Origin: Cellulomonas sp. KH9
Lineage (GTDB): Bacteria > Actinomycetota > Actinomycetes > Actinomycetales > Cellulomonadaceae
Direction of reading: 5' to 3'
Length of the DNA stretch: 64,000 nucleotides
Assembly: GCF_900114185.1 (NCBI RefSeq)
Contig: NZ_FOSE01000004.1
Coordinates: 1-64,000, forward strand
Part shown: piece after piece, positions 648-22,147 of the stretch
Layout of the letters: the number at the start of each line of letters is the position of its first letter
Numbering within the stretch: position 1 is the first letter of the stretch
Notes under the pieces: model-generated
Seen by the model: only the letters and a program-made list of their open reading frames with translations
Database searches by the model: none
What the model was told of the DNA's origin: nothing
Position numbers and translations under genes: made by a program

Positions 648-2852
648 TCAGGCGGTCGTCGGCGTCCCGTCCTCGTCGAGGACGAAGATCACGGCGCCGA
701 GCGGAGGCACCCGGATCGAGGCCGACCACGCGCGTCCGTAGTGCTCGACCGGCTCGGCAGCGATCGCGCCCAGGTTGCCGACACCGGACCCGCCGTAGAT
801 CTGGGCGTCCGAGTTGAACGCCTCCCGCCACGTGCCTCCCGCGGGCAGCGGGACGCGCCACCCCTCGTGGGGAACGCCCGCGAAGTTGACGACCACGACC
901 ACCGGGGGAGCGTCCACGCCGTACCGGGCGTAGGCCAGCAGGTTGAGGTCGGCCTCGTCGGACGCCAGCCACGCGAAGCCGTCCGGGGTGTGGTCGAGCT
1001 GCCAGAGTGCGGGCGTCCGGCGGTAGACCTCGTTGAGGTCACGCAGGCTCCGCTGCACCCCACGGTGCGCGTCGTCGTCGAGGCTGTACCAGTCGAGGGA
1101 GCGGGACTCCGCCCACTCACCCTGCTGCGCGAACTCCTGGCCCATGAACAGCAGCTGCTTGCCCGGATGCGTCCACTGGTACGTGAGGAGGGCGCGGACG
1201 CCCGCGAGCTTCTGCCAGTGGTCGCCCGGCATGCGCCCGTAGAGCGAGCCCTTGCCGTGCACCACCTCGTCGTGGCTGATGGGCAGCACGAAGTGCTCGG
1301 AGTAGGCGTACACCATCGAGAACGTGATCTCGTGGTGGTGGTAACGGCGGTTGATCGGCTCCTCACGCAGGTAGCGCAAGGTGTCGTTCATCCAGCCCAT
1401 GTTCCACTTCAGGCCGAAGCCCAGGCCCTGTGCGGACGTCGGCGCCGTGACGCCCGGCCACGCCGTCGACTCCTCGGCGATCATCATGATGCCGGGGGTG
1501 CGGCGGTACGCCGTCGCGTTGGTCTCCTGCAGGAACGAGATCGCCTCGAGATTCTCCCGGCCGCCGTACGCGTTGGGACGCCACTGGCCCGGCTGCCGCG
1601 AGTAGTCGAGGTAGAGCATCGACGCGACGGCGTCGACACGCAGGCCGTCGACGTGGAACTCCTCGAGCCAGTACGTCGCGTTCGCGACGAGGAAGTTGCG
1701 CACCTCGGGGCGTCCGAAGTTGAAGACGTACGTGCCCCAGTCCGGGTGCTCACCGAGCAGCGGGTCCGGGTGCTCGTACAGCGCCGTGCCGTCGAAGTGG
1801 GCGAGCGACCACTCGTCCTTCGGGAAGTGCGCGGGCACCCAGTCGACGATGACGCCGATGCCGGCGCGGTGCAGGCAGTCCACGAGGTACCGGAAGTCGT
1901 CGGGGTGCCCGAACCGCGCGGTGGGGGCGTAGTACGACGACACCTGGTAGCCCCACGAGCCGCCGAACGGGTGCTCCGCGACCGGCAGCATCTCGACGTG
2001 GGTGAAGCCCATCTCCAGCACGTACTCCGTGAGCTGGTGCGCCAGGTCCCGGTACGACAGGCCCTGGCGCCACGACCCGAGGTGGACCTCGTAGACGCTC
2101 ATCGGACCCGCGTGCGGGTCGCGCTGCGCCCGGGCGGTCATCCACGAGTCGTCGGACCACGAGTACGAGGTCTCGACGACGACGGAGGCGGTGGCGGGCG
2201 GCACCTCGGTGCCCTTCGCCATCGGGTCCGCCTTCTGGCGCCACGACCCGTCCGCCCCGAGGATCTCGAACTTGTACCGGGCGCCGGCGTCGACGCCCGG
2301 CGCGTACAGCTCCCAGATGCCGCTGTCACCGAGCGAGCGCATGGCGTGGGTGGCGCCCTGCCAGTGGTTGAAGTCGCCGACGACACGCACCGCACGCGCG
2401 TTCGGCGCCCAGACGGCGAACGACGTGCCGCGGACCGGGCCGAGCTCGCCGTCGTAGGTGCGGACGTTGGCGCCCAGGACCTGCCAGAGCTGCTCGTGGC
2501 GGCCCTCGCGCACCAGGTAGCGGTCGAGCTCCTGCACCGTCGGGAGGAACCGGTACGGGTCGTCGACCACGGCCGTCCAGTCCGCGTAGGTGACCTCGAG
2601 GCGGTAGTCGGGCACGGTCGTGCCGGGCAGCAGGGCGTACCAGACGCCGTCCAGCTCGTGCTGCGCCTCGACGCGGGCGTCCGCCGTGACGACCACGACG
2701 CGGTCCGCGAGGGGGCGCAGCGTGCGGACCGTGACGGTGCCGTCGCCGACGTGCGGACCCAGGACCGCGTGGGGGTCGTAGAAGGAGCCCGCTGCCACGG
2801 CGCGCAGGGTGTCGTGGTCGACGGGCACGGGGGACGTCGCAGCCGCAGTCAT
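648..2852 (-). CDS. glgB: 1,4-alpha-glucan branching enzyme GlgB (GH13)
   Basis: GlgB transfers short alpha-1,4 chains to alpha-1,6 positions of glycogen in the cytoplasm. The 734-residue protein has the family layout: N-terminal beta-sandwich/CBM48 modules (about 1-230, with [19 protein letters not shown]) and a GH13 barrel. Conserved regions are [21 protein letters not shown] with nucleophile Asp407, MMIAEEST with acid/base Glu460, and [14 protein letters not shown]. The ATG at 2852 is chosen over the TTG twelve bases upstream because GGGTAGGGAC then acts as ribosome binding site and the protein begins MTAAATSP. It lies 54 bases after the LacI-like gene and could be read through from the mannosidase promoter. 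It supplies the branching step for the glgE operon encoded 8-12 kb away. Confidence 0.96.
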
Positions 2853-6533: not shown

Positions 6534-8738
6534 GTGCCACAGCGTCCCGACGACGAGACGACCCCGACGACGAACCACCCGGGGGGCGGGCAGCCACCCG
6601 GACGACCCGACGAGCTGCTGCACCTGCGCGCCGCGGGCGTCAGCCTCGTGCTCGACCTCGCCGGCCTGCCGCGCGTGCTGCACTGGGGCGCCGATCTCGG
6701 CCCCCTCGACGCCGACGCGCTCGCGGACCTGCGGCTCGCCGGGCGCCCGGCACTCATGGGCTTCCCCGTGGACGGCGGCGTGGTGCCCGGCGTCCTGCCG
6801 CTGCAGGCGGACGGCTGGCTCGGCACCCCGGGCCTGACCGGCTCGCGCGCCGGCCGCGCCTGGTCACCGGACTTCCACGTCGGGATCCCGCAGCTGACCC
6901 GCTCGGGCGACGGCGGTGCCGTGCTCGTGGTGCCCGCCACCGACCCGGCCACCGCGCTGGAGCTCGAGCTCGTGCTCGAGCTCACACCGCAAGGTCTCGT
7001 CCGCCAGCGCGCCACGCTGACCAACACGGGGGACGACGTCTACGAGCTCGGCGGGCTGCTGCTCACCCTGCCGGTGCCGGTCCGCGCGACCACGCTGCTC
7101 GACTTCGGCGGGCACTGGGCGCGCGAGCGGTCACCGATCCGCACGGAGTTCACGCACGGCACCCGGCTGCGCGAGAACCGCCGCGGACGCACCGGGTTCG
7201 ACACCCCGTACGTCCTCGTCGCCGGGACCGAGGACCTGGCGCACCGCCGCGGCGAGGCGTGGGGCTGGCACGTCGCCTGGTCCGGGAACCACCGCAGCCT
7301 CGCGGAGCGCACGCACTACCACCCCGGTCTGCTGGGCGGCGGCGAGCTGCTGGCACCCGGCGAGGTCCGGCTGCAGCCCGGCCAGTCCTCCACGAGCCCG
7401 TGGGTCTACGGCGCGTACGGCGAGCAGGGGCTGGACTCCCTCGCCTCGCGGTTCCACACCTGGCTCCGCGCCCGCCCGCAGCACCCCCGCAGCCCGCGCC
7501 CGGTCACGCTCAACACGTGGGAGGCCGTCTACTTCCAGCACGACCTCGGTCGGCTCGTCGAGCTGGCGGACGCGGCGGCAGCCGTCGGGGCGGAGCGCTT
7601 CGTCCTGGACGACGGGTGGTTCGGCTCGCGCCGCGACGACCACCGGGGACTCGGCGACTGGTACGTGTCCGACGAGGTGTGGCCCGACGGGCTGCACCCG
7701 CTCATCGAGCACGTGACCGGGCTGGGGATGCAGTTCGGGCTCTGGGTCGAGCCGGAGATGGTCAACCCCGACTCCGACCTCGCGCGCGCCCACCCCGACT
7801 GGATGCTGCGCCTGCCCGACCGTCTGCCCGGCGCCGCGCGGTGGCAGCAGGTGCTCGACCTCGCGCGCCCCGAGGTGTTCGACCACATCCTCGGGCGGCT
7901 CGACGCGCTGCTGAGCGAGCACGACATCGCGTACCTCAAGTGGGACCACAACCGCGACCTCGTCGACGCCGGCCACGGACCCGACGGCGTGCCCGGCGTG
8001 CACGGGCAGACGCTGGCCGTCTACCGGCTCCTCGACGCGCTGCGCGCGCGCCACCCGCGCGTCGAGATCGAGTCGTGCTCCTCCGGCGGTGCCCGGGTCG
8101 ACCTGGAGATCCTCCAGCGCACCGACCGGGTCTGGGGGTCCGACTGCATCGACGCGCTCGAGCGCCGCGCCATCCAGCCGTGGACCAACCTGCTCATCCC
8201 GCTGGAGCTCATCGGTGCGCACATCGGCTCCGGGACGGCCCACAGCACGGGCCGCAGCGCGACGCTCGGCTTCCGGGCCGGCACCGCGCTGTTCGGCCAC
8301 CTGGGCATCGAGTGGGACCTGCGGGAGGCCGACGACGCGCAGCGCGCGGAGCTGGCGGCCTGGGTCGCGCTGTACAAGGACGTGCGCGGCCTGCTGCACA
8401 CCGGGGTCAGCGTGCACGCCGACCTGCCGGACCCGGCGTTCGAGGTGCACGGGGTGGTCGCCCAGGACGGTTCCGACGCCCTGTTCGCCGTCGCCGCGGT
8501 GGCGTCGTCCGCGCAGATGCCGGCGAACGCCGTGCCGCTGCCCGGCCTCGACCCCGACGCGACGTACCACGTGCGGCCCCAGGCGCCGGGCGACGCCATC
8601 ACCCACGGCTGGAAGGCCCCGTGGTGGACGCCGCAGGGCGTCCGCGCGACGGGCCGGGTCCTCGAGCAGGTCGGGGTGCGGGCCCCTCACCTCTCGCCGG
8701 AGCGCCTCGTCCTGGTGCGCGCCACCCGCGTGGACTGA
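6534..8738 (+). CDS. alpha-galactosidase (GH36)
   Basis: The 734-residue cytoplasmic protein hydrolyses terminal alpha-galactose from raffinose-type sugars or galactomannan fragments. GH36 signatures: FVLDDGWFGSRRDD, LWVEPEMVNPDSDL, YLKWDHNRDL with nucleophile Asp471, IESCSSGGARVDLEIL and VWGSDCIDALER with acid/base Asp537. Length matches the bacterial GH36 average of about 720-740. The GTG start at 6534 is set by GGAGG six bases upstream. It is divergent from the beta-mannosidase and followed, after a terminator-like hairpin, by a ROK repressor. The pair suggests removal of galactose branches and mannose backbone units from galactomannan. Confidence 0.95.
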   Translation: MPQRPDDETTPTTNHPGGGQPPGRPDELLHLRAAGVSLVLDLAGLPRVLHWGADLGPLDADALADLRLAGRPALMGFPVDGGVVPGVLPLQADGWLGTPGLTGSRAGRAWSPDFHVGIPQLTRSGDGGAVLVVPATDPATALELELVLELTPQGLVRQRATLTNTGDDVYELGGLLLTLPVPVRATTLLDFGGHWARERSPIRTEFTHGTRLRENRRGRTGFDTPYVLVAGTEDLAHRRGEAWGWHVAWSGNHRSLAERTHYHPGLLGGGELLAPGEVRLQPGQSSTSPWVYGAYGEQGLDSLASRFHTWLRARPQHPRSPRPVTLNTWEAVYFQHDLGRLVELADAAAAVGAERFVLDDGWFGSRRDDHRGLGDWYVSDEVWPDGLHPLIEHVTGLGMQFGLWVEPEMVNPDSDLARAHPDWMLRLPDRLPGAARWQQVLDLARPEVFDHILGRLDALLSEHDIAYLKWDHNRDLVDAGHGPDGVPGVHGQTLAVYRLLDALRARHPRVEIESCSSGGARVDLEILQRTDRVWGSDCIDALERRAIQPWTNLLIPLELIGAHIGSGTAHSTGRSATLGFRAGTALFGHLGIEWDLREADDAQRAELAAWVALYKDVRGLLHTGVSVHADLPDPAFEVHGVVAQDGSDALFAVAAVASSAQMPANAVPLPGLDPDATYHVRPQAPGDAITHGWKAPWWTPQGVRATGRVLEQVGVRAPHLSPERLVLVRATRVD

Positions 8739-8749
8739 CCGGGCCGGGT

Positions 8750-8779
8750 GCACCGGCGCGCGGGGTCGCGCGCCGGTGC
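8750..8779 (+). terminator. terminator-like hairpin after the alpha-galactosidase
   Basis: Perfect 12-base inverted repeat GCACCGGCGCGC / GCGCGCCGGTGC with loop GGGGTC, beginning 12 bases after the stop codon. There is no T-run, as is common for terminators in high-GC actinobacteria. Confidence 0.65.
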
Positions 8780-8899
8780 CCCGCCAGCGGCGTGGGCTCA
8801 CCCGGACGCCGCGGCCCCGCCGTCGCTCGCAGGCGCCGAGGGGTGGCTAGGCTCGGTCAGGTCGCAGTCCGGCGGCCGCACGGCGACGGGAGCAGGAGT

Positions 8900-10141
8900 G
8901 TGAACGCAGGCACGCCCGGCCCCCGCACCGGCAGTCGCAGCGCGATCCTCGACGTCATCCGCGCGGCCGGCACCATCAGCCGCGTCGAGCTGACGCGCGC
9001 CACCGGCCTGACGGCCGCGACGGTCTCGACCGTCGTCCGGCGCCTCCTCGACGAGGGTCTGGTGGTCGAGGCCGGCCGCGCCGAGTCCACCGGCGGCAAG
9101 CCCCGGATGCTGCTGCAGCTCGACCCCGACGCGGGCTACGCCGTCGGCGTCCACCTGGACCACGCCGGCATCACGTACGTGATCGCGAACCTCGGCGGCC
9201 AGGTCGTGGCGCGGTGGCGGCGCCCGGGTGCCGGGTCCGACGACCCGCGGGACGTGGTCGGGCGCATCGCGGCCGAGGTCGCGGCCACCACCGCGCGCGT
9301 CGGCGTGGACGGGGACCGGCTGCTCGGCGTCGGCGTCGTGTCGCCCGGTCCGCTGTCGACCACCACCGGCATGACGCTGGCGCCGCCCGTCATGCAGCAC
9401 TGGGCCGACTTCCCGCTGGCCCACGCGATCGAGGACGCGGTCGGGCTGCCCGTCCTGCTCGACAACGACGCGACGGCCGCCGCGCTGGGGGAGTACTGGT
9501 CCGGCGGTGTGCCCACCGGGGCGGTGTGCGCCGCGCTGTACATGGGCACGGGCATCGGGGCGGGGATCATCGTCGACGGGACGGTGTACCGCGGCCGGTC
9601 GTCGAACACGGGCGAGATCGGGCACGTGTGCGTCGACGTCGACGGGCCGCCGTGCTGGTGCGGCTCGCGCGGGTGCATCGAGGTGCTCGCCGGGCCTGCC
9701 GCCGTGGTGGCGCGGGCCACCGAGGCCGGCATCGCGCTGCCGGGTCGCAGCGTGCCCGAGGACTTCGCGGCCCTGGCCCGGGCGGCGGCACGCGGCGAGG
9801 AGGAGCCCGCGCGGCTGCTGCGGGAGTCGGCCCGGTACCTGGCCGCTGCCGCGCAGGTGCTCGCCAACGTGCTCGACCTCGACCTGCTGGTCCTCACGGG
9901 GGCGTCGTTCGCCCAGGCCGGTTCGCTCTACCTGCCGGTCGTCCAGCAGCGCCTCGCCGACGGGTTCTTCGCCCGTGCCACGCACCCGGTGCGCGTCACG
10001 ATCTCCTCGCAGGCGTCCGAGGCCGCCGCCCTGGGCGGTGCCGCGCTGGTGCTGCAGGCGGAGCTGGCTCCCCGGCAGGCGGGGCTGCGGATGGTCGTCG
10101 ACACGATGACCGAGCTGCCCGCGGGCTCCGGCGTCGCCTGA
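8900..10141 (+). CDS. ROK-family transcriptional repressor
   Basis: The 413-residue protein has an N-terminal winged helix-turn-helix (about residues 10-70: AILDVIRAAGTISRVELTRATGLTAATVSTVVRRLLDEGLV) followed by a ROK sugar-kinase-like domain. The latter shows GVGVVSPGPL, LLDNDATAAALGEYW, YMGTGIGAGIIVDG and the ROK zinc signature CWCGSRGCIE. Such XylR/NagC/Mlc-like proteins sense sugars or sugar phosphates and repress catabolic genes. The GTG start has GGGAG seven bases upstream, and a -10-like TAGGCT lies at 8848-8853. Its likely target is the AT-rich mannosidase/alpha-galactosidase control region. It is convergent with the maltokinase gene, ending only 11 bases away. Confidence 0.93.
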   Translation: MNAGTPGPRTGSRSAILDVIRAAGTISRVELTRATGLTAATVSTVVRRLLDEGLVVEAGRAESTGGKPRMLLQLDPDAGYAVGVHLDHAGITYVIANLGGQVVARWRRPGAGSDDPRDVVGRIAAEVAATTARVGVDGDRLLGVGVVSPGPLSTTTGMTLAPPVMQHWADFPLAHAIEDAVGLPVLLDNDATAAALGEYWSGGVPTGAVCAALYMGTGIGAGIIVDGTVYRGRSSNTGEIGHVCVDVDGPPCWCGSRGCIEVLAGPAAVVARATEAGIALPGRSVPEDFAALARAAARGEEEPARLLRESARYLAAAAQVLANVLDLDLLVLTGASFAQAGSLYLPVVQQRLADGFFARATHPVRVTISSQASEAAALGGAALVLQAELAPRQAGLRMVVDTMTELPAGSGVA

Positions 10142-10152
10142 CGCCGTCGCCG

Positions 10153-11445
10153 TCAGCCGAGCAGGCGGTCCAGCCCGGCCTCGGGGATCGGCGCCCAGGT
10201 GGGGCGGTTGCGCGCCTCGTACACGGCCTCGTAGAGCGTCTTGTCGAGCTCGAGCGCGCGCAGCAGCAGCGTGCTGGTCGGGTCGTCCGTCACGCCGTAG
10301 CCCGCGAGCAGGGCCGCCCGGGCGTCCGCGGTCCACGCGGCCGCGGGTGCGCCGCTCAGGCCCCCGACCGCCGCGGCGTAGTCGAACGACCGCAGCAGGC
10401 CTGCGACGTCCCGCAGCGCGAGGTCCGGCAGGACGCGGGCGGCCAACGGCGCCAGCGGCTCACCCTCGAAGTCGATGACGAACCAGCGGCCCGCCGAGCG
10501 CAGCACCTGCCCCAGGTGCAGGTCGCCGTGCACACGCTGCCGCGCCGGCGTCGCGGGCAGGGCGGCCACCTCCGCGGCCACGGCCGCGACCGCCGGCTCC
10601 CGGTCGGCGAGCGACGGCACGGCATCGACGGCCCACGCGAACCGCTCGCGCAGGGACCGCGCCAGCGCCTCCCCGCCGGCGGGGTCGGGATCCGCCCCGA
10701 ACGCCCGCACCAGCGCCGCGTGCATCCCCGCGACGGTCGTGCCCAGCTCCGTCGCCGGACCGCCGAACGCTCGCCCCTCGGACGCCCACGCGCACGCCAG
10801 CTCGAACCCGTCCTGCGCACCCGGCACGAACGCGCTCAGGACACCCAGGTAGCCGACCACGGGGTCGCCGTCCGGACCGGGCCACCGCGCCTGCGACCAC
10901 GCCAGAGGGGCCGGGACACCGTCCCACCCCGCCTCCACCAGCCGCCGCGGCACGTCGATGTCCGGGTTCTCGCCCGCGGCGACCGCGCGCAGCACCTTGA
11001 GCATCCCCACCGGGGTGCCGTCCGGCGCGGGCAGCACGACCGAGGTGTTCGACTGCTCGCCGGTCACCACCCGCGCGCCCGTCACGTCGACCTCGGCCCC
11101 CGGCCCGTCCGCCCCCGCGAGCCAGGCCCGCAGGAACCGGGCGTCCCCCGTCGCGTCCAGCACCGTCCGGCCGCCGACCTCCCCGACGACCGAGGCGCGG
11201 TCGGTCCCGACGGGCGCCGCCCCGGGCAGCAGCACCAGCGGGACCTGCAGCAGCACGTCCCGGCCGGCCGCGTCGACCCGCACGAGCAGGACCCGCACGT
11301 CGTCGGCCAGATGCACCGCACCCACCGGAGACAGCCGCGCGGCGGACCCCTTCGCGGGGTACCAGCGGCGGTGCGGCAGCCACGCGTGCAGCAGCCCCAC
11401 CAGCTCGTGGTCGACGTCGTCGGGGGCACGTGCGTCGAGGATCAC
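10153..11445 (-). CDS. mak: maltokinase (Mak/Pep2)
   Basis: Maltokinase makes maltose-1-phosphate from maltose and ATP, the substrate of GlgE. The 430-residue protein has an N-terminal cap ([12 protein letters not shown]) and a kinase fold of the aminoglycoside-phosphotransferase type: [15 protein letters not shown] with the ATP-binding lysine, [11 protein letters not shown] with the catalytic aspartate, and FVIDFEGEP for metal binding. The GTG start overlaps the treS stop by four bases (GTGA), so both are translated together; in many actinobacteria the two are fused. It is the last gene of the glgE-treS-mak operon. Confidence 0.94.
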
Positions 11446-13340
11446 GGCGCCGTCAGCTCCAGCCAGTAGAACTCGCGCGACCCGAGAGTGAACGTGAGGG
11501 TCCCGTCGTCGCGCACGTCGGGGAAGTGCGACCCGCCGAACACGTCGCGGGCGGACCAGCCGGTGTGCTCGGGGAGCGTCACCGTCGCCGCGCGGGCCGT
11601 CGCCGCCAGGTTGGCCACCACGAGGATCGTCTCGTCCTCCGTGCGGCGCAGGAACGTCAGCACCGCCTCGTTGTCGCAGGACACGACGTCGAACGTGCCG
11701 AGACCCAGCGCACGGTGCTGCCGGCGGACCGCCAGCATGCCGTGCACCCAGTGCAGCAGGGACGTCGGCTGCGCCAGCTGCGACTCCACGTTGACGTTGC
11801 CGTAGTGGTAGACGAGCGACTGCACCAGCGGCAGGTAGAGCTTGCCGGGGTCCGCGGTGGAGAACCCGGCGTTGCGGTCCGGCGTCCACTGCATCGGCGT
11901 GCGCACCGCGTCACGGTCCGCGAGCCAGATGTTGTCACCCATGCCGATCTCGTCGCCGTAGTACAGGCACGGGCTGCCCGGCAGCGACAGCAGCAGCGCG
12001 TGCGCCAGCTCGATCTCCTTGCGGGAGTTGTCGAGCAGCGGCGCGAGCCGGCGGCGGATGCCGATGTTGGCGCGCATCCGCGAGTCCGGTGCGTACCAGC
12101 CGTACATCGACGCGCGCTCCTCGGTGGAGACCATCTCGAGCGTCAGCTCGTCGTGGTTGCGCAGGAACGTGCTCCACTGCCCGCTCGCCGGGATCGGCGG
12201 GGTGTCCGCGAGGATGTCGACGATCTGGGTGGCCCGCTGGTCGCGCAGCGCGTAGTAGATGCGCGGCATGACGGGGAAGTGGAAGCACATGTGGCACTCC
12301 GGCTCCTCGTCGGTGCCGAAGTAGTGCACCACGTCCTCGGGCCACTGGTTCGCCTCGGCCAGCATGATGCGGCCCGGGAACTCCTCGTCGATCATCCGGC
12401 GGACCTTGCGCAGGAACTCGTGCGTCTCCGGCAGGTTCTCGCAGTTGGTGCCCTCGGCCTCGAAGAGGTACGGCACGGCGTCCAGGCGGAAGCCGTCCAC
12501 CCCGAGGTGCAGCCAGAACCGCGCGACGTCCATCATCGCGTCGACCACGCGCGGGTTCTCGAAGTTCAGGTCCGGCTGGTGGCTGAAGAACCGGTGCCAG
12601 AAGTACTGGCGCCGCACGGGGTCGAACGTCCAGTTCGACGTCTCGGTGTCCACGAAGATGATGCGGGCGTCGTGGTAGCGGGTGTTGTCGTCGCTCCACA
12701 CGTAGAAGTCCCCGTACGGGCCGTCCGGGTCGGAGCGGGAGGCCTGGAACCACGGGTGCTGGTCGCTGGTGTGGTTCATCACCAGGTCGACGACGATCCG
12801 CATGCCGCGCCGGTGGCACTCGATGACGAGCATGCGGAAGTCGTCGAGCGTCCCGTACTGCGGGGCCACCGCGGTGTAGTCCGACACGTCGTACCCGCCG
12901 TCGCGCATGGGCGAGGGGTAGAACGGCGGCAGCCACAGGCAGTCGACGCCCAGCCACTGCAGGTAGTCGAGACGCTGGATGAGGCCGGGCAGGTCACCGC
13001 TGCCGTTGCCCGAGGAGTCCGCGAACGTGCGCAGCATGACCTCGTAGAACACGGCGGTGCGGTACCACTCGGGGTCGGTGTCGCGCCCGCCGGACGGCAG
13101 CGGCGTCGGCACGTCGGGCTGCCGGCGACCGGGCAGCCCGGACAGGGCGATCGCCGCGGTCGTCGGGGGCGGCTCGCGGTGGACCGGGACCGCGTCGGGG
13201 GACGGCACGGAGCCCGGGGGCGGGGTGCCCACCGGCGGCTCCGTCGACCGCGTCGGGGTGCCGAGCACCGGGGTCCGGGGCGCGCGCGGATCGCCCGACG
13301 CGGAGGCGGCACCCTCCGGGGGCGGGAGCACGGGCCTCAT
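11442..13340 (-). CDS. treS: trehalose synthase TreS (maltose glucosylmutase, GH13)
   Basis: TreS interconverts trehalose and maltose. The GH13 barrel begins with [18 protein letters not shown], then [38 protein letters not shown] with nucleophile Asp287, [11 protein letters not shown] with acid/base Glu329, and [12 protein letters not shown], followed by the C-terminal beta domain. At 632 residues it carries an extra 75-90 residue N-terminal segment rich in Pro, Thr and Gly (starting [13 protein letters not shown]) that is probably disordered. The ATG overlaps the glgE stop (ATGA). If the extension is not translated, a later start is possible, but the coupling favours 13340. Confidence 0.94.
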
Positions 13341-15469
13341 CGTGCCTCGTGCGGGTGCTCGAGGTGGACCACGTGCGCGACGCTCACCATCGGGTCGAGC
13401 CGGACGTAGACCTGGTCGGACCAGGCGTACGTCTCGCCGGACAGCGCGTCGTGCGCGGCCACCGGCCGGTCCGCGGGGAGGCCGAAGGCGCTCAGGTCCA
13501 GGTACGCCACGCCCTCGCGGGCGTTGTGCGGGTCGATGTTCACGACCACGACCACGGTGTCCGGCCGGCCCGTGGGCGAGTGGGCGGCGTCGAGGTGGCG
13601 CGAGAAGCACACGAGCGCGTCGTCGGTCGTCGGGTGCACCCGCACGTTGCGCAGCTGCTGCAGCGCCGGGTGCGCGCGCCGGATCTCGTTGAGCCGCCCC
13701 AGGAGCAGGGCGATCCCGAGGTCGTCGGCACGGGCCCAGTCCCGCGGCCGGAACTCGTACTTCTCGTTGTCGATCTGCTCCTCCACCCCGGGCCGGGGCA
13801 CGTTCTCGACCAGCTCGTAGCCGGAGTACACGCCCCAGGTGGGCGACCCCGTCGCCGCCAGCACGGCGCGCACGGCGAAGCCGGGGACCCCGCCGTGCTG
13901 CAGGTACGGCGGCAGGATGTCGTGCGTCGTCGGCCAGAAGCTCGGGCGCAGCCAGGCGGCCTCCTCGCCGCCGACCCGGGCGAGGTACTCCTCGAGCTCC
14001 GCCTTGGTGTTGCGCCAGGTGAAGTACGTGTACGACTGGTGGAAGCCGATCTTGGCCAGCGTCAGCATCATCGCCGGGCGGGTGAACGCCTCGGACAGGA
14101 AGATCACCTCGGGGTGCGAGGCCCGGACGTCCGCCAGCAGCCGCTGCCAGAACGACAGGGGCTTGGTGTGCGGGTTGTCGACGCGGAACGCCGTCACCCC
14201 GTGGTCGATCCACACCTGCACGACCCGGCGGACCTCGGCGTAGATCCCCTCGGGGTCGTTGTCGAAGTTCAGGGGGTAGATGTCCTGGTACTTCTTCGGC
14301 GGGTTCTCCGCGTAGGCGATCGTGCCGTCGGCCCGCGTGGTGAACCACTCCGGGTGCTCCGTGACCCACGGGTGGTCCGGCGAGGCCTGCAGCGCGAGGT
14401 CGAGCGCGACCTCCAGCCCCAGCGAGCGGGCCCGCGCGACGAAGGCGGTGAAGTCGTCGAACGTCCCGAGCGTCGGCTCGATGGCGTCGTGCCCGCCGTC
14501 CGGGGAGCCGATGGCGTAGGGCGAGCCCGGGTCGCCGGGCAGCGCGGCCAGGGCGTTGTTCCGGCCCTTGCGGTACGTGGTGCCGATGGGGTGGATCGGG
14601 GTCAGGTACACGACGTCGAAGCCCATCGCGGCGATGCGCGGCAGCTGGTTGGCGGCCGTGCGCAGCGTCCCGGACGTCCACCGCTGGGTGGTCTCGTCGT
14701 ACGTCGCGCCGTGGGACCGCGGGAACATCTCGTACCACGAGCCGGTGAGCGCCAGGCGGCGGTGCACGACCAGGGGGTAGGCCCGCGACCGCGTGACCAG
14801 GTCGCGCAGCGGCGCGCGGTCGAGCACCTCACGGACCTCGGGCGCCAGCGCCGCGGCGAGCCGCGCGAGCGGGGGACGGGACGTGTCGCGCAGCCCGGCG
14901 ACCGCGTCGAGGAGGACGCGGGCGTCGCGCGGGCGCATCGCGTCCTCGCCGGTGCGGCCGGCGGCGCGCAGCAGCACGAGCTCGCCCTCGGTGAGCATGA
15001 GCTCGACGTCGATGCCCGCCTCGACCTTGATCGCGGCGTCGTGCGCCCACGTGCCGTACGGGTCGGACCAGCCCTCGACGCGGAAGGACCACTCGCCCTC
15101 GACGTCCGGGACCAGGCGGGCCTCGTACCGGTCGAGGCCGGGCGCGATGTCGACCATGCGCGCCGAGGAGTGGACCGAGCCGTCGGGCCGCAGCAGCACC
15201 GCCGTCGCACCGAGCGCGTCGTGGCCCTCACGGATCACGGTCGCCCGCACGGGCACCGCCTCGCCCACCACCGCCTTCGCGGGGAAGCGTCCCTCCTCGG
15301 CGACGGGGTAGACGTCGAGCACCGGGATGCGACCCACGGGCACCACGGGCACGGGGGCGTCCGTGGCCGGGGTCACGGTGGGCTGCGGCGGCAGCACGGG
15401 GGCGACGGCACGTGCGGGGCCGGGGGATGTGGCCGGTGACGTGCGACGAGAACGGCGGGGAGTCGTCAC
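13337..15469 (-). CDS. glgE: alpha-1,4-glucan:maltose-1-phosphate maltosyltransferase GlgE
   Basis: GlgE elongates alpha-1,4-glucan using maltose-1-phosphate. The 710-residue protein has the GH13_3 arrangement: N-terminal beta-sandwich ([47 protein letters not shown]), then [64 protein letters not shown] with nucleophile Asp431 and [12 protein letters not shown] with general acid Glu460. Length matches the Streptomyces and Mycobacterium enzymes. The GTG at 15469 is supported by a -10 box seven bases upstream, implying a leaderless mRNA; the first 45 residues are a low-complexity basic/proline region. It leads the operon glgE-treS-mak and is divergent from the phosphorylase-like gene. Confidence 0.95.
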
Positions 15470-15476
15470 GGTCCCG

Positions 15477-15482
15477 AACCTA
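15477..15482 (-). promoter_or_regulatory. -10 box of a leaderless glgE transcript
   Basis: TAGGTT on the minus strand followed by seven bases and the GTG start of glgE. The spacing puts the transcription start at the first codon. No convincing -35 hexamer or ribosome binding site is present. Confidence 0.55.
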
Positions 15483-15623
15483 TCCGTCCTGCAGGGGTGG
15501 CGGCATCCGGTGGGCGGCGCGTCGCGTGCCCGCCGCGCCGCGGGACGCCGTCGGCGGTCCGGCAGCCGGACGCTCGTCCGGGTCGGACGTCCAGGACGGG
15601 CTGTGCGATCCGTCCGTTCTGCG

Positions 15624-15629
15624 TAGTCT
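15624..15629 (+). promoter_or_regulatory. -10 box of a leaderless transcript for the phosphorylase-like gene
   Basis: TAGTCT followed by six bases and the GTG start at 15636; no Shine-Dalgarno sequence lies between them. With the glgE box it defines a divergent promoter pair inside a 166-base interval. Confidence 0.55.
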
Positions 15630-15635
15630 GCGCGC

Positions 15636-18221
15636 GTGAGAGCCATCCGCCGGTTCACCGTCCGCACCCTCCTGCCTGCACCGTTGGCCGAGCTCGAGGA
15701 GCTCGCGCACGACCTGCGGTGGTCCTGGCACCCGCCGACGCGTGCCGTCCTCGCCGACGTCGACCCGGTGGCCTGGTCCCGCGTGGGCGGGGACCCCGCC
15801 GCCCTGCTCGACGCGCTCGACCCCGAGCGGGTCGCCGCCGCCGCCGCGGACCCCGCGCTGGTGGCGCGCGTCCGGGCCGCGGCGGCGGACCTGCGGGCGT
15901 ACCGCACGGGACCGCGGTGGTACCAGCGCCAGGGCGGGGCCGCGCTGCCCGCCGCCGTCGCGTGGTTCCCGCCCGGCCCCGACGACGCCCCCCGGGCCGC
16001 CGCCGCCGCCCCCGGGCCCCACGGCCTGGAGGCCCTCGCGGACGACCACGTGCGCGCGGCGTCCGACCTGGGCGTCCCGCTGGTCGCCGTCGGGCTCGTC
16101 GACGACCAGCGGCGCCCGACGGCCCACGGCACCCGGGACCTCGGTCCCGGCGCGCCCCCGTCGCCCACGGAGGACGGCGGCGCCGCGCCGCTGCTGCGGG
16201 AGCCCGACGGGACCCCGGTCGTCGTGCAGGTGGCAACACCCGGGAGCGCGCTGCGCGCCCGCGTCCGCGTCGCCCGTGCCGGTCGCGTCCCGCTGCTGCT
16301 CCTCGACCCCGTGGAGCCGGGGACCCCGACGGCCGGGGGACGGGCCACGGCGGGACCCGCCGCCGAGCGGTCCGCCGCCGTGCGTCGGCTCGAGCGGGCC
16401 CTGCTGCGGGGGGTCGGCGGGCTGCAGGCGGTGCGTGCCCACGCGCGTCTCACCGGTGCGCCGCAGCCCGAGGTGGTGCACGCCGGCGGCGCGCACGCCG
16501 GGTTCGTCGGGCTGGAGCGGGTGCGTGAGCTCGTCGCCGCCGGCGCGACGTACGACGCCGCGCTCGAGCTGGTCCGGGCGACGTCCGTCCTCGCCGTGCA
16601 GGTGCCCGGCCCGGCGACGGTGCTCGACGGCGCGCTGGTGGCCGAGCACCTCGCGGCGCTCGACCCCGCCGGCGACCTGCCCACGACCGACGTCCTGGCG
16701 CTGGGCGCGCGGGCCGGGGGCGAGGCCGACGCGCCCGTCGACACCGCCGTCCTCGCGCTGCGCCTGGCCGACCGGGCGAGCGGCGACTCCCGCCGTCACG
16801 GCCGCACGTGCCGCGAGGCGTACGCCGACCTGTGGCCCGGCTTCGACCCCCAGGAGGTCCCGATCGGCTCGGTCACCGCCGGCGTGCACGCGCCCACGTG
16901 GGTCGCGCCCGAGGTCACGGACCTGGGCGCGCGCCGGATGAGCGCGCGCGACCTGGCCACCGGCGCGGGGTGGGACGTCGGCGGGCCCGTCGACGACGCC
17001 GACCTCTGGGAGCTGCGTCGTCGGCTGCGTGCGCGACTCGACGACCTGCTCCCGGGCGGGGCGGACGGGCCGCGCCCGTCGGCGCCGGGTACCGTCCCCG
17101 CCGAGCCGCTGACCGTGGGCGTGGTGCACCGGCCGTCGTCGGGCGGCGCACCCCTGGACCTGCTCCTCGACGACCCGGACCGCCTGGCCGCGCTGCTGCT
17201 CGACGCGGCCCGTCCCGTGCGCCTGGTCGTCGCCGCCGGGCCGGGCGGCGTCCCCGCCGCGCTCGGTGCGCTCGCGGACCGGCCGGACCTCGACGGCCGG
17301 CTCGTCGTCCTCACCGACGCCTCGTCCGACCTGCTGCGAGCGCTCCACGCCGGCTGCGACGTGTGGCTCGACACGCCCGTGGACCCGTCGGGTGCGAGCA
17401 CCGCGTCGGGGATGCGCGCGGCGCTCAACGGCGTCCTCACCCTCGCCGTGCGCGACGGCTGGTGGGACGAGTGGTACGACGGCGAGGACGGCTGGGCGCT
17501 GCCGCGGCCCGCGCCCGAGGACGGCGACGAGGGCACGGCGCAGCGCGCCGCGGTCCTGCACGACGTCCTCGCGGAGCAGGTGGTGACCTGCTTCCACGAG
17601 CGGGACGGCGACGGGCTGCCGCGCCGCTGGCTGGCGGCGGTCCGCCGCACGCTCGTCACCCTCGCGCCCAAGGTGCAGGCGACGCGCATGGTCGCGGACC
17701 ACGTCGCGCACCTCTACGCGCCGGCCGCCGCGGCGGGCGCCGCCCTGGCGGCCGACGACCTCGCCGGCGCCGTCGCGCTCGCGGGCTGGCGGTCGCGGGT
17801 GCGGTCCGCGTGGCCGGGGGTCGCCGTCGCCGACGTCGAGGTCACGGGCGCCGGCACGCCACCGCGGGTCGGTGACGTGCTGCACGTCCGGGCGTCGGTC
17901 ACGCTCGGCGGCCTGCTGCCCGACGACGTCGCGGTCCAGGTGGTGCACGGCCCCGTGGGCCCGGACGACGAGATCACGGACCTGCACGTCGCGGCCCTCG
18001 TGCAGGCGGCCCCCGCCGCCGACGCGCCGGACGCCGTCGACGCGCCGGACGCCGACGCGGGCACCGGCGGCGTCGGCCGGACCGAGGGCGGCCGGTACGC
18101 GTACGTCGGGGAGGTCGGGCTGACGCGCGCCGGACCGTTCGGGTGGACCGTGCGGGTGGTGCCCCGGCACGACGCGCTCACCTCGGTGGCCGCGACGGGG
18201 CTGGTGGCGACCGCGGGCTGA
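15636..18221 (+). CDS. glycogen-phosphorylase-like protein (GT35) with a lost active site
   Basis: The 861-residue protein is collinear with actinobacterial alpha-glucan phosphorylase: the N-terminal DUF3417-type module (RRFTVRTLLPAPLAELEELAHDLRWSW), ASDLGVPLVAVGL, LWPGFDPQEVPIGSVTAGVHAPTW, GCDVWLDTPVDPSG, MRAALNGVLTLAVRDGWWDEWYDG and the C-terminal beta domain are all recognisable. Key catalytic elements are altered. The PLP-binding lysine of the SGMKAALNG motif is Arg594 (CGC at 17415-17417). The GGLGILAGDH loop is GPHGLEALADDH (127-138). NEGHAGF is AGGAHAGF (283-290). The GFARRVPTYKR phosphate-binding segment is GVVHRPSSGGA (495-505), and NGVH is AGVH. It cannot plausibly bind PLP as a Schiff base, so it is probably a pseudoenzyme. 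It is divergent from glgE. Normal length and lack of stops argue against a recent pseudogene. Confidence 0.85.
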   Translation: MRAIRRFTVRTLLPAPLAELEELAHDLRWSWHPPTRAVLADVDPVAWSRVGGDPAALLDALDPERVAAAAADPALVARVRAAAADLRAYRTGPRWYQRQGGAALPAAVAWFPPGPDDAPRAAAAAPGPHGLEALADDHVRAASDLGVPLVAVGLVDDQRRPTAHGTRDLGPGAPPSPTEDGGAAPLLREPDGTPVVVQVATPGSALRARVRVARAGRVPLLLLDPVEPGTPTAGGRATAGPAAERSAAVRRLERALLRGVGGLQAVRAHARLTGAPQPEVVHAGGAHAGFVGLERVRELVAAGATYDAALELVRATSVLAVQVPGPATVLDGALVAEHLAALDPAGDLPTTDVLALGARAGGEADAPVDTAVLALRLADRASGDSRRHGRTCREAYADLWPGFDPQEVPIGSVTAGVHAPTWVAPEVTDLGARRMSARDLATGAGWDVGGPVDDADLWELRRRLRARLDDLLPGGADGPRPSAPGTVPAEPLTVGVVHRPSSGGAPLDLLLDDPDRLAALLLDAARPVRLVVAAGPGGVPAALGALADRPDLDGRLVVLTDASSDLLRALHAGCDVWLDTPVDPSGASTASGMRAALNGVLTLAVRDGWWDEWYDGEDGWALPRPAPEDGDEGTAQRAAVLHDVLAEQVVTCFHERDGDGLPRRWLAAVRRTLVTLAPKVQATRMVADHVAHLYAPAAAAGAALAADDLAGAVALAGWRSRVRSAWPGVAVADVEVTGAGTPPRVGDVLHVRASVTLGGLLPDDVAVQVVHGPVGPDDEITDLHVAALVQAAPAADAPDAVDAPDADAGTGGVGRTEGGRYAYVGEVGLTRAGPFGWTVRVVPRHDALTSVAATGLVATAG

Positions 18222-18249: not shown

Positions 18250-19902
18250 TCAGGCGGCCGCGAGGGCGCGCCCCGTGGTGCGGCCGGTGAACAGGCAGCC
18301 GCCGAGGAACGTCCCCTCCAGGGCACGGTGGCCGTGGACGCCACCGCCGCCGAAGCCCGCGGCCTCACCCACCGCCCACAGCCCCGGCAACACCTCCCCG
18401 TCGGGGCGCAGCACGCGGCCCTCGAGGTCCGTGGCGAGCCCGCCGAGGGTCTTGCGGGTCAGGACCGACAGCCGCACGGCGTACAGCGGGCCGTGCGCCG
18501 GGTCCAGCAGGCGGTGCGGCGGCGCGACCCGCACGGCCCGGTCGACGACGTACCGCCGGGCGGTCGCGGTCGCGACGACCTGCAGGTCCTTGCCCAGGCC
18601 CGTCGCCACCTGGGCGTCGCGCGCCGCGATGGTGCCGGCGAGCGCGTCCGGGTCGATGCGGTCGGTACCCGTCAGCGCGTTCATGCCCGCCGCGAGGCCC
18701 GCCGGGGTGGTCGCCGTGACGAACTCCGGCGACCGTCGCGCGAACGCCTCGACCGGGCCGACCGCCCCCGCGCGCACGCGCTGCAGCAGGAGCCGGACGT
18801 CACGCCCGGTGAGGTCCGGGTTCTGCTCGGACCCGGACAGTGCGAGCTCCTTGCCGAGGATCGTGCGGTCGAGCACGAACCACGAGTGGTCGTGCCCGTG
18901 CGACGTGAGGTGGGTCAGCGTCCCCAGGGAGTCGAACCCGGGGAACAGCGGGGGCGGCAGCCGTCGGCCGTCGGCGTCCAGCCACAGCGAGCTGGGTCCC
19001 GGCAGGATCCGGATGCCGTGCGCCGTCCACACCGGGGAGTGGTTGGCGACGCCCTCCGGGTAGTGCCACATGCGCCCGGCGTGGGCCACGTGCGCGCCGG
19101 CGGCGCGGGCCGCCGCGATCCCGGAGCCGTCCACGTGGTCGGGCACGCCGGAGAGCAGGCGCCCCGGAAGGGGGCCCGCCGTGGCGGGCCACGTGGCGCG
19201 CACCAGGTCGTGGGCGGCGCCGATGCCCCCGGTCGCCACGACGACCGCAGGGGCGGCGACCTCGAACGGCCGCAGCACGTCGCGCGACGACGGCGCGCCG
19301 CGGGCCACCCGGTCGGGCACCAGGACGTCCCCGCGGACCCCGGTCACGCGGCCGTCCGTCGTGGTCAGCGCGGTGACCCGGTGCCGGAACCGCACCTCGA
19401 CGAGCCCGTCGCGGTGCCCGTCCAGCAGGGTCCGGACGAACGGCTCGAGGACCGCGGGACCGGTCCCCCAGGTGACGTGGAACCGCGGCACGGAGTTGCC
19501 GTGGCCGTCGGCCAGGTACCCGCCGCGCTCGGCCCACTGCACCAGCGGGAACCAGCGCACGCCCTGGCCGTGCAGCCACGACCGCATCCTCCCGGCGGCG
19601 AACTCGACGAACGCCTCCGCCCAGGCCCGCCCCCAGCGGTCGGACCCGTCGTCGGCGAACGCCGCGGAGCCGAGCCAGTCCGCGAGCGCCAGCTCGGGGC
19701 TGTCGCGCACGCCCAGACGCCGCTGCTCGGGGGAGTCGACCAGGAACAGCCCGCCGAACGACCACCACGCCTGCCCGCCGAGGGACGCCGGCGGCTCCGC
19801 GTCCAGCAGGAGCACGCGCCGCCCGGCACGCAGCAGCTCGGCGGTGGTGACCAGGCCTGCGAGCCCGGCACCGACGACCACGACGTCGTGGGGGTGCGTC
19901 AT
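18250..19902 (-). CDS. FAD-dependent dehydrogenase (fumarate reductase/ketosteroid dehydrogenase fold)
   Basis: The 550-residue flavoprotein begins with a dinucleotide-binding motif, VVVVGAGLAGLVTTAELLRAG, then LLLDAEPPASLGGQAWWSFGG, a middle capping domain (PRFHVTWGTGPAVLEPF; VVVATGGIGAAHDLV) and a C-terminal FAD contact GLWAVGEAAGFGGGGVHGHRALEG. This layout matches the FAD-binding-2 family of actinobacterial putative dehydrogenases, whose substrates are mostly unknown. The ATG at 19902 is supported by TAGCGT six bases upstream (leaderless pattern). It sits between the phosphorylase-like gene (convergent) and glgX (same strand, 32 bases downstream of glgX). No link to glucan metabolism is evident. 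Confidence 0.86.
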   Translation of the reverse strand: MTHPHDVVVVGAGLAGLVTTAELLRAGRRVLLLDAEPPASLGGQAWWSFGGLFLVDSPEQRRLGVRDSPELALADWLGSAAFADDGSDRWGRAWAEAFVEFAAGRMRSWLHGQGVRWFPLVQWAERGGYLADGHGNSVPRFHVTWGTGPAVLEPFVRTLLDGHRDGLVEVRFRHRVTALTTTDGRVTGVRGDVLVPDRVARGAPSSRDVLRPFEVAAPAVVVATGGIGAAHDLVRATWPATAGPLPGRLLSGVPDHVDGSGIAAARAAGAHVAHAGRMWHYPEGVANHSPVWTAHGIRILPGPSSLWLDADGRRLPPPLFPGFDSLGTLTHLTSHGHDHSWFVLDRTILGKELALSGSEQNPDLTGRDVRLLLQRVRAGAVGPVEAFARRSPEFVTATTPAGLAAGMNALTGTDRIDPDALAGTIAARDAQVATGLGKDLQVVATATARRYVVDRAVRVAPPHRLLDPAHGPLYAVRLSVLTRKTLGGLATDLEGRVLRPDGEVLPGLWAVGEAAGFGGGGVHGHRALEGTFLGGCLFTGRTTGRALAAA

Positions 19903-19933: not shown

Positions 19934-22141
19934 TCAGGGGCGGACGTACACCCGCATGCTCAGCGGCTCGACCGTCGTCACGGTGCCCCCCGGTTGGTGC
20001 AGGCCGCCGGAGATCGCCGCGGTCGACACCTCGGACGGGTGCTCCCACACGGAGTCCCACGCGAGCCGCCACGGCCGGTCGTCACCCGCGACGAGCTGCA
20101 CCTCCACGGCGTCGAGCGCCCCGTTCACGACGAGCAGCACCTGGTCGTCGTGGGGCTCCGGCGCGACCCGGGCCATCTGGAAGGTGCGGACGCCCGCGTC
20201 GTGCCACCGGGCGTGGTCGAACTCGACGCCGTCGGCGCCGTACCAGGCCAGGTCCGGCGGCCCGCCGGGGACCCACGGGCGCCCGGAGTAGAACGTCCGG
20301 GTGCGCAGGGCCGGGTGGTTGTGCCGCAGGGCCACGAGGTGCCGGGTCGTCGCGAGCAGCGACGTCCGCCACGGCGCCAGGTCCCAGTCGACCCAGGAGA
20401 CCTCGTTGTCCTGGCAGTACGCGTTGTTGTTGCCCCGCTGGGTGCGGCCCATCTCGTCGCCGGCGGTGATCATGGGCGTGCCCGCGGACAGCACGAGCGT
20501 GGCGAACAGGTTGCGCAGCGACCGGCGGCGCAGCGGGGCGATGTCGGCCGCGGGGGAGTCGCGCTGCACGGGGCCCTCGACGCCGTGGTTCCACGACCGG
20601 TTGTCGTCCGAGCCGTCGCGGTTCTGCTCCCCGTTGGCGGAGTTGTGCTTGTGCTCGTAGGCGACGAGGTCCGCCAGGGTGAAGCCGTCGTGCGCCGTCA
20701 CGTAGTTCACCGACGCGCGGGGGCCGCGGGCGAGGCCGGGCGACCCCCCGCCGAACAGGTCGACCGACCCCGACAGGCGCGTGGCGAGCTCGCGCACCCG
20801 GTGCCCGGGCAGCCCGTGCGCGGCGCGGCCGGGGTCGGCGAGCCAGAACGAGCGCACCGCGTTGCGGAACCGGTCGTTCCACTCCGCGAAGGGCGGCGGG
20901 AACTGCCCGGTCCGCCAGCCGCCGGGGCCGACGTCCCAGGGCTCCGCGACGAGCTTGAGCCCGGCGAGCCGCGGGTCCGTCGCGGCCGCCACGTACGTCG
21001 CGTGGTCGGCGCGGAAGCCGTCGGTGCTCCGGCCGAGCGTGACGGCGAGGTCGAACCGGAACCCGTCGACGCCGACGACGTCCGCCCAGTACCGCAGCGA
21101 GTCCAGGGTCTGGTGGACCACGCCCGTGCGGCGGAAGTCCAGGGAGTTGCCGGTCCCCGTCACGTCGGCCGGCGTGGCCGGCACCGCGCCGCCGTGCGCG
21201 TAGTAGTAGGCGTTGTCGAGGCCGCGCCAGGAGAGGTGCTGCCCGTCCGTGCCGCCCTCGCAGGTGTGGTTGTAGACGACGTCGAGCAGCACCTCGAGCC
21301 CGGCCTCGTGCAGCGCGTGGACCGTCGCGCGCAGCTCCGCGAGCACGGCCGCCGGGCCTGCGGCGCGGGCCGCCGCGGTGGCGTACGCCGCGTGCGGGGC
21401 GAAGAACCCGAGCGTCGAGTAGCCCCAGTAGTTGGTCAGGCCCTTGGCCACCAGGTGCGGCTCGGACGTGAACGCGTGGATCGGCAGCAGCTCGAGGGCG
21501 GTGACGCCCAGCCCGAGGAGGTGGTCGATGACGGCGGGGTGCGCGAGGCCCGCGTACGTGCCGCGCAGCTCCTCCGGCAGCGCGGGGTGCAGCCGGGTCA
21601 GGCCCTTGGTGTGCGCCTCGTAGACGACCGTGCGCGACCACGGCGTCCAGGGCCGGTTGGCCGCCGGGTCGGGCCCGGGCAGCGCGCGCGTGTCGACGAC
21701 CACGCCGTGCGGCACGTGCCCGGCCGAGTCGCGGGGGTCGGGCGGACCGTACGGGTTGCCCGTCAGGTCGCTCGCCACGACGTGCCCGTACGTCTCCGGG
21801 CCGTGGCCCAGGTCGCCCACGAGGCCCCGGGCGTACGGGTCGACCAGCAGCTTGGCGGGGTTGTACCGCAGCCCGTAGGCGGGCTCCCACGGGCCGTGCG
21901 CGCGCAGGCCGTAGCGCTGCCCGGGCCGGACGCCCGGCACCGACGCCGCCCAGTGGCCCAGCCGCGGGCCCGACAGCGGCACGCGGCGCTCCGTCGGGGC
22001 GTCCAGCGGGCCGTCGAGCAGGCACAGCTCGACCGCGGTGGCGTGGGGAGCGAGGACGGCCACGTCGACGCCCGTGTCGGTGACGTGGACGCCGAGGCGG
22101 TACGGCCCGTGCGCTCGGCCGGTCGTCGTGGGGTCGGTCAC
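19934..22141 (-). CDS. glgX: glycogen debranching enzyme GlgX (isoamylase type, GH13)
   Basis: GlgX hydrolyses alpha-1,6 branches of glycogen limit dextrins. The 735-residue protein has an N-terminal CBM48-like domain (YRLGVHVTDTGVDVAVLAPHATAVELCL), then VYEAHTKGLTRLHPALPEELRGTY, LELLPIHAF, LLDVVYNHTCEGG, GVDGFRFDLAVTLGR with the nucleophile aspartate, KLVAEPWDVGPGGW with the acid/base glutamate, VNYVTAHDGFTLADLV, and GDEMGRTQRGNNNAYCQDNE. The GTG at 22141 (MTDPTTTGR...) is preferred over the GTG six bases upstream because a -10-like box lies exactly six bases before it. It is divergent from etfB and upstream of the flavoprotein gene. Confidence 0.95.
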   Translation of the reverse strand: MTDPTTTGRAHGPYRLGVHVTDTGVDVAVLAPHATAVELCLLDGPLDAPTERRVPLSGPRLGHWAASVPGVRPGQRYGLRAHGPWEPAYGLRYNPAKLLVDPYARGLVGDLGHGPETYGHVVASDLTGNPYGPPDPRDSAGHVPHGVVVDTRALPGPDPAANRPWTPWSRTVVYEAHTKGLTRLHPALPEELRGTYAGLAHPAVIDHLLGLGVTALELLPIHAFTSEPHLVAKGLTNYWGYSTLGFFAPHAAYATAAARAAGPAAVLAELRATVHALHEAGLEVLLDVVYNHTCEGGTDGQHLSWRGLDNAYYYAHGGAVPATPADVTGTGNSLDFRRTGVVHQTLDSLRYWADVVGVDGFRFDLAVTLGRSTDGFRADHATYVAAATDPRLAGLKLVAEPWDVGPGGWRTGQFPPPFAEWNDRFRNAVRSFWLADPGRAAHGLPGHRVRELATRLSGSVDLFGGGSPGLARGPRASVNYVTAHDGFTLADLVAYEHKHNSANGEQNRDGSDDNRSWNHGVEGPVQRDSPAADIAPLRRRSLRNLFATLVLSAGTPMITAGDEMGRTQRGNNNAYCQDNEVSWVDWDLAPWRTSLLATTRHLVALRHNHPALRTRTFYSGRPWVPGGPPDLAWYGADGVEFDHARWHDAGVRTFQMARVAPEPHDDQVLLVVNGALDAVEVQLVAGDDRPWRLAWDSVWEHPSEVSTAAISGGLHQPGGTVTTVEPLSMRVYVRP

Positions 22142-22147
22142 CCCCAC

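Follow-up and report, generated by a model that had tools for sequence, protein, structure and literature searches.

The analysed stretch of Cellulomonas sp. KH9, 64,000 nucleotides long and called the window here, carries the genes mak, treS, glgE and glgX, and between glgE and a gene for an FAD-binding dehydrogenase lies a homologue of glycogen phosphorylase (Table 1). The earlier note had described this gene as divergent from glgE, which is borne out by synteny. The frame is open over all 861 codons, and the protein starts with VRAIRRFTVRTLLP, as in its relatives. The TIGR02094 profile matches residues 130-696 with 305.8 bits (cut-off 191.7), and the gene combines a DUF3417 domain with the orthologous position adjoining glgE; by sequence, both findings place it in TIGR02094. 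The nearest solved structure by sequence is the phosphorylase 9l6i from Segatella copri (phmmer E 5e-69, residues 6-733). A second TIGR02094-type copy was searched for in the window genome (4.17 Mb in 11 contigs) and was absent.

Table 1. Features at the locus, in window coordinates.
Feature	Position	Strand	Remarks
mak, behind treS	10153-11457		Mak_N_cap
treS	11445..13268 (stretch searched, start approximate)	-	TIGR02456, 910.2 bits, over cut-off; syntenic
glgE, divergent neighbour	13337..15400	-	PF11896, PF21702; syntenic
Conserved upstream block	15601..15635	+	extended -10-like TGCGTAGTCT (15620-15629), which ends 6 nt before GTG
Pseudo-phosphorylase gene	15636..18221	+	861 aa, GTG start; positional orthologue of TIGR02094 glycogen phosphorylase
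N-terminal DUF3417 domain, conserved	15672..15968	+	residues 13-111; PF11897 E 1.3e-22
Eroded catalytic GT-B core	15969..17735	+	residues 112-700; lost conserved columns and raised tip omega
Former glycine loop	16020..16049	+	residues 129-138; HGLEALADDH, family GGLGILAGDH
Former NEGH motif	16485..16496	+	residues 284-287; GGAH
Former THTPVP motif	16596..16613	+	residues 321-326; VQVPGP (H322Q)
Former NGVH asparagine	16878..16880	+	N415A; TAGVH, family TNGVH
Former phosphate-site stretch	17121..17153	+	residues 496-506, family FARRVP..YKR; of the key residues R499 alone remains
Former EACGTSGMK PLP loop	17391..17417	+	residues 586-594; GASTASGMR
PLP lysine position	17415..17417	+	Arg594 (CGC); codon comparison with sister genes
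C-terminal part with beta-sandwich domain at its end, conserved	17736..18218	+	residues 701-861; model and fold look-up
FAD-binding dehydrogenase (PRK12834 type)	18250..19902	-	syntenic neighbour
glgX	19934..22147	-	TIGR02100, 772.9 bits; syntenic neighbour

The gene order galA-ROK-mak-treS-glgE/phosphorylase-FAD dehydrogenase-glgX-etfB-etfA (galA named by the Melibiase profile, treS by TIGR02456) is common to the window, to G100, the genome of a separate species described below, and to three genomes with an intact phosphorylase (G016, G074 and G101). The same order is present in G006 and G082, where the galA hit is absent; G009, a more distant genome, has the core from mak to glgX, minus the FAD dehydrogenase, and the Cellulomonas MAG L031 has the cluster from treS to etfA, with a glgE 86% identical to that of the window. 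Identity to G016, G074 and G101 is 78-94% for the neighbouring proteins and 53-54% for the phosphorylase. Trees of the full protein and of its terminal parts alone place the window and G100 proteins, with 100% support, in a group with eight near intact proteins. A long branch leads to the pair, measuring 0.96 in the first tree and 0.39 in the second. Synteny and both trees rule out horizontal gain or a paralogue.

Immediately upstream of the start codon, a 35-base block is conserved among relatives. Compared ungapped with the window, it is identical at 35 of 35 positions in G100 and at 34 of 35 in G074, followed by G016 (28), L031 (27), G006 (26), G009 (9) and G101, whose score of 7 arises because the same block sits one base further away. 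Directly upstream of the block only 15 of 25 bases are identical in G074; upstream in G100 a one-base gap spoils the ungapped count, the whole region being 92.5% identical. The block looks like a leaderless-type promoter and is treated here as a putative one.

Lost catalytic residues and the eroded core

The PLP lysine is replaced by arginine, as the earlier note had read it: codon 594 is CGC in the window gene and AAG in all four sister genes checked, and the family residue is present in 121 of 121 aligned homologues. Changes in the glycine loop, the NEGH motif, the NGVH asparagine and the FARRVPTYKR stretch, which that note had also listed, were recovered in an alignment of the window protein with 9l6i, on which six altered motifs were read (Table 1); the phosphate site, for example, has become VVHRPSSGAP. 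We take the altered motifs to be the active site of phosphorylase, by analogy with the rabbit enzyme. Seventeen key columns carry the family residue in every one of the 121 homologues; 14 of these are lost in the window protein, where G130, H287 and R499 remain, and 15 in the G100 protein, where two remain.

The PLP position is arginine in both proteins. Since K679 is the sole lysine of the window protein, no other lysine is able to bind PLP at the site, and an alternative lysine, which the earlier note had named as a way to overturn its reading, is ruled out. The composition has moved towards Ala, Gly and Pro, and only that lysine remains; prolonged relaxation under GC pressure would be expected to have this effect. 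By function, membership in GT35 would call for the PLP lysine and the active-site motifs, and as far as sequence can tell the window protein has neither. Its loss of catalysis is close to certain, and the loss of the PLP lysine together with five further active-site motifs in a glgE-linked phosphorylase is confirmed by the alignments.

The earlier note had further held that the changes were limited to the active site and that structural motifs were kept, which the analysis did not support: the losses extend beyond the active site. Of the conserved columns, 132 are lost in both species, 114 with an identical replacement. Loss specific to the active site is unsupported, with 23 of 48 motif columns lost versus 109 of 299 other conserved columns (p = 0.15). 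A contrast between the core (residues 112-700) and the termini (1-111 and 701-861) was put in its place: of the columns conserved in 95% or more of the 121 homologues, both species have lost 112 of 272 in the core versus 7 of 62 in the termini (p = 3.5e-6), the latter comprising 5 of 37 in residues 1-111 and 2 of 25 in residues 701-861. Among the near intact species themselves the core is mostly better conserved than the termini, whereas between the dead pair (the window and G100 proteins) and the near intact species it is worse conserved, in four of four core segments. Between the window and G100 proteins, conservation is lowest in segments 112-330 and 481-590 (0.85) and 0.90-0.94 in the rest. 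The contrast is clear: erosion is broad across the core, while DUF3417 and the C-terminal part have kept near-normal constraint.

The phosphorylase fold is predicted to be intact. The model of the window protein (pLDDT 79.8, pTM 0.84) has 9l6i as its best structural match (Z 30.2, rmsd 3.4 over 768 residues). Modelled alone, the C-terminal domain is a beta-sandwich (pLDDT 76), and its fold look-up is headed by a mannanase domain (Z 8.7), followed by 9l6i (8.6); the lower rows, CBM21 domains (Z 6.8-7.9) and GlgE domain N (Z 7.0-7.8), are too weak to name it. GlgE domain N was considered as a relative, at 16-20% identity, and is not claimed, the profile comparison giving probabilities of 2-4%.

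Distribution of the loss and selection after it

The glgE gene is present in all 81 genomes analysed from the genus, and a TIGR02094-type phosphorylase in 33 of them, the other 48 being without a match. Among these 33 carriers, 31 keep the key residues and two are dead, the window genome and G100. Thirty carriers were aligned (28 intact, two dead), and G082, G093 and G096 were read separately; the key residues are present there wherever readable, the gene of G082 being in pieces. The G100 orthologue, from a separate species, encodes 872 aa, is 88% identical to the window protein and scores 305.2 bits with TIGR02094; its motifs are nearly those of the window protein, differing at few positions (HSLEALASDH, GASTPSGMR). 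The earlier note had looked to related genera for the arginine, and had named the decay of a single strain among intact orthologues as a refutation of its reading. Intact orthologues are indeed the rule, and 31 of the 33 carriers keep the key residues, but G100 has the arginine as well, and purifying selection acts on both genes (see below). Because G100 shares the loss, single-strain decay is ruled out; the losses arose in the ancestor that the window species shares with G100.

A phosphorylase homologue was searched for and not found in two sister genomes, G029 and G007 (the latter in 280 contigs). In G029 the slot that separates glgE from the FAD dehydrogenase no longer contains a phosphorylase gene, so the gene can be lost; a 446-aa ORF in that slot had no match in NCBIfam or Pfam. 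An order-wide sample of 396 genomes, G100 not among them, yielded 186 with a TIGR02094 match over the cut-off. Their best E-values are at most 5e-218 except in the window genome (4e-91), G050 and G357, and the weak matches of the last two start at contig positions 3 and 7 and cover the model partially. The window genome thus gave the only weak match spanning the model, and independent dead cases elsewhere among the 396 genomes were not found.

Selection was estimated with a purpose-written codon likelihood model under F3x4 and F61 codon frequencies, with the window and G100 branches as tips. Omega was 0.162 on the tips versus 0.057 in the background (F3x4), and 0.157 versus 0.050 (F61), i.e., about three times the background of the intact orthologues. 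Setting omega = 1 on the tips cost 66.6 and 68.5 log units, respectively, and was rejected (2 delta lnL 133 for F3x4 and 137 for F61). By region, background and tip omega were 0.088 and 0.118 in the termini and 0.045 and 0.177 in the core, and omega = 1 on the tips was rejected for termini and core separately (2 delta lnL 49 and 87).

Neutral simulation pointed the same way. The pair shows 101 nonsynonymous codon differences, whereas neutral means were 389-464 over six settings and 240 runs, each continued until the synonymous differences matched (lowest run 254), which is a shortage of about fourfold. Neither gene has an internal stop; the simulated pairs had 1.6 to 4.2 stops on average, and 17 of the 240 runs had none, so a frame free of stops is by itself weak evidence. 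The two genes differ in length only in linkers, where the gaps of the nucleotide alignment are singly not all multiples of three but their sums per linker are (30, 3, 12 and 12 in one gene; 15, 6 and 3 in the other).

For the same two species, glgE shows 25 nonsynonymous and 53 synonymous differences and the phosphorylase 101 and 88, which indicates that the protein is less constrained than an enzyme, yet far from free. Pairwise omega between the window and G100 was 0.447 by NG86 and 0.161 by YN00; NG86 ignores the strong codon bias, and codon likelihood and simulation are therefore preferred. On the stem, the F61 branch stood at its upper bound and its omega was not used; with glgE as a clock (dN 0.2255, dS 0.89) stem omega was about 0.25, although selection there is poorly measured because the stem's own dS is saturated. 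The window gene shows neither the neutral evolution nor the broken frame of a pseudogene, and its protein corresponds to a pseudoenzyme, a homologue without catalytic residues that is maintained by selection. Its upkeep by purifying selection since the species split is well supported by the codon comparisons, in agreement with the earlier suggestion, from the intact frame, that selection has kept it.

An intact glgP, for which the earlier note had suggested a search, was found elsewhere in the window genome: a canonical GlgP (L111) with GTGNMKF, VKRLHEYKRQ and TNGVTPRRF present. Canonical GlgP occurs in both species with the dead protein, and the G100 copy scores 71.9 bits with TIGR02094, below the cut-off. 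GlgB is encoded in the window (687-2525) and a glgA_Coryne-type synthase in the same genome, both over their cut-offs. Across the genus, 47 genomes have only the canonical enzyme, 16 only the glgE-linked one, 17 both (including the two dead) and one, 61% complete, neither. These counts make catalytic redundancy with canonical GlgP before the loss plausible.

Possible roles and comparison with known systems

We consider it reasonably probable that the gene encodes a conserved pseudo-phosphorylase, freed by redundancy and retained because its terminal domains serve glycogen metabolism in a non-catalytic way. The glgE-linked phosphorylase of the ancestor shared with G100 lost the PLP lysine along with most residues of the substrate and phosphate sites, and its core eroded, the catalytic role presumably having been made redundant by an intact canonical GlgP. 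The frame, the promoter-like sequence, the predicted fold and both terminal parts stayed, with selection removing most amino-acid changes after the species split. Expression of the protein from the promoter facing glgE would continue, and a job that is independent of catalysis, possibly common to intact members, may reside in DUF3417 and the C-terminal beta-domain. This job would most likely be that of a glucan-binding scaffold or a regulator holding glycogen or GlgE/GlgX/GlgB; the glucan-binding idea is based on the weak CBM21 resemblance of the predicted domain (Z under 8), among many other beta-sandwiches of similar or higher Z. Against this reading speak the occurrence of the dead protein in two species only, the raised omega, the NG86 value for the pair, the composition drift, the poorly measured selection on the stem and the fact that the gene can be lost.

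More tentatively, glgE-linked phosphorylases at large might have a second, catalysis-independent function in DUF3417 and the C-terminal beta-domain, e.g., organising the GlgE glycogen particle. If catalysis was lost while this second function stayed selected, the lineage would expose that function.

It is unlikely that a new enzyme has arisen, with the GT-B fold recruited to a reaction independent of PLP and phosphate. The fold is predicted intact, its structural matches include starch and glycogen synthases, which operate without PLP, the replaced motif residues are near-identical between both species, and selection still acts on the core. However, the core underwent the greatest change along the stem and shows the higher omega at the tips, most of the family's active-site motif residues are gone, and no new invariant motif is discernible in the two sequences. 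We regard as very unlikely a decaying pseudogene with a frame open by chance, stops being rare in a GC-rich genome. The erosion of the whole core, the composition drift, the raised omega, the few stops of the neutral simulation and the many genus genomes without a match are in its favour, but it is disfavoured by the nonsynonymous shortage, by the rejection of omega = 1 for tips, core and termini, by a frame that survives several linker indels, by the fully identical promoter block in G100 and by the sharing of the gene between two species.

Just as improbable is a role as partner subunit or regulator of the genome's own canonical GlgP. Both species with the dead protein have that enzyme, and non-catalytic partners are known from plant starch metabolism; on the other side, canonical GlgP belongs to a distant branch, as the score of the G100 copy indicates, and we know of no mixed oligomers of the canonical and TIGR02094 branches. 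Least credible is an expressed but useless protein, selected solely against misfolding or toxicity, which would account for an omega between neutral and background but leaves unexplained the near-normal termini next to a core relaxed about fourfold, and the retention of the gene, given its loss in G029.

The case for a pseudo-phosphorylase with a non-catalytic role directs attention to the C-terminal domain and to DUF3417, itself a domain of unknown function, as the parts that carry a separable role, and makes the window gene a natural mutant for probing it. Because the states before and after the loss occupy the same gene slot in sister species, the non-catalytic part of the constraint is directly readable. 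Pseudoenzymes are a known kind, and no report of one made from glycogen phosphorylase appears among the literature matches listed or in the accessible part of a 2024 review (PMC11046441).

Compared with known systems, the window protein resembles the TIGR02094 GlgP encoded beside glgE and the Segatella copri enzyme 9l6i in its whole-length homology, DUF3417, C-terminal domain and predicted fold, and its gene shares with those of actinobacterial TIGR02094 GlgP the divergent placement from glgE. It differs from them in the loss of the PLP lysine, the glycine loop, NEGH, H322, N415, E586 and most of the phosphate site, and in its eroded core. The canonical GT35 GlgP (PF00343) of the same genome is a distant relative of the same fold class; unlike the window protein, it has intact catalytic motifs, and it is located elsewhere in the genome. 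CBM21 domains (PTG domain 7qfa and Rhizopus glucoamylase domain 2djm) are beta-sandwiches like the C-terminal domain, with Z of 7.3 and 6.8, but identity is 7 and 10%, and a Z under 8 may reflect a common arrangement only. AtBAM4, a plant beta-amylase pseudoenzyme described in PMC6394054 as inactive, with a role in glucan turnover and a mutant phenotype, belongs to another family than the window protein and is likewise an inactive member of a family of storage-glucan enzymes.

Phosphorylase types and loci across the genus

Glycogen phosphorylase occurs as two types in the genus, with a patchy split among the 81 genomes. The canonical type stands alone in 47 of them and the glgE-linked type in 16, 17 genomes encode both, and the only one with neither is incomplete. 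This distribution looks likely to reflect reciprocal loss of redundant enzymes.

No phosphorylase was found between glgE and the FAD dehydrogenase gene in one genome (G029), and the 446-aa ORF at this position had no match in Pfam or NCBIfam. The phosphorylase of another genome (G082) lies in pieces that retain the key residues wherever these are readable. The nearby etfB, a gene of the same cluster, is also split, which points to assembly errors more than to decay.

Features of the phosphorylase loci and their coordinates
Feature	Sequence	Position	Remark
glgE	window	13337-15400	
Conserved block GTCACGGTCCCGAACCTATCCG	window	about 15465-15486	intergenic region
Phosphorylase gene	window	15636-18221	
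C-terminal beta-sandwich	window	17799-18218	likened to N domain of GlgE
Phosphorylase pieces	L164 (G082)	6811-9370 and 2009-2826	
Phosphorylase slot	L163 (G029)	10435-12565	glgE to FAD dehydrogenase
446-aa ORF	L163 (G029)	11131-12471	occupies the slot

Composition and upstream region of the window gene

GC contents at codon positions 1 and 2 of the window phosphorylase gene are 0.87 and 0.59, compared with about 0.79 and 0.49 in five intact sisters, and its product has a single lysine (7-12 in six intact proteins). Such a composition points to drift toward GC-coded residues once constraint was relaxed. Upstream, the intergenic block is unchanged in four of six aligned sequences, with one change in the intact sister G101, and is probably part of the glgE promoter. 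Many glgE matches in the genus contain one TGA within the aligned stretch; this may be the genuine stop codon, with the alignment extending beyond it at the C terminus.

The C-terminal domain and GlgE

Profile comparison of the phosphorylase C-terminal domain with GlgE, the product of the divergently oriented adjacent gene, did not support a relationship; in structural comparison, the beta-sandwich resembled the GlgE N domain with Z scores of 7.0-7.8 at 16-20% identity.
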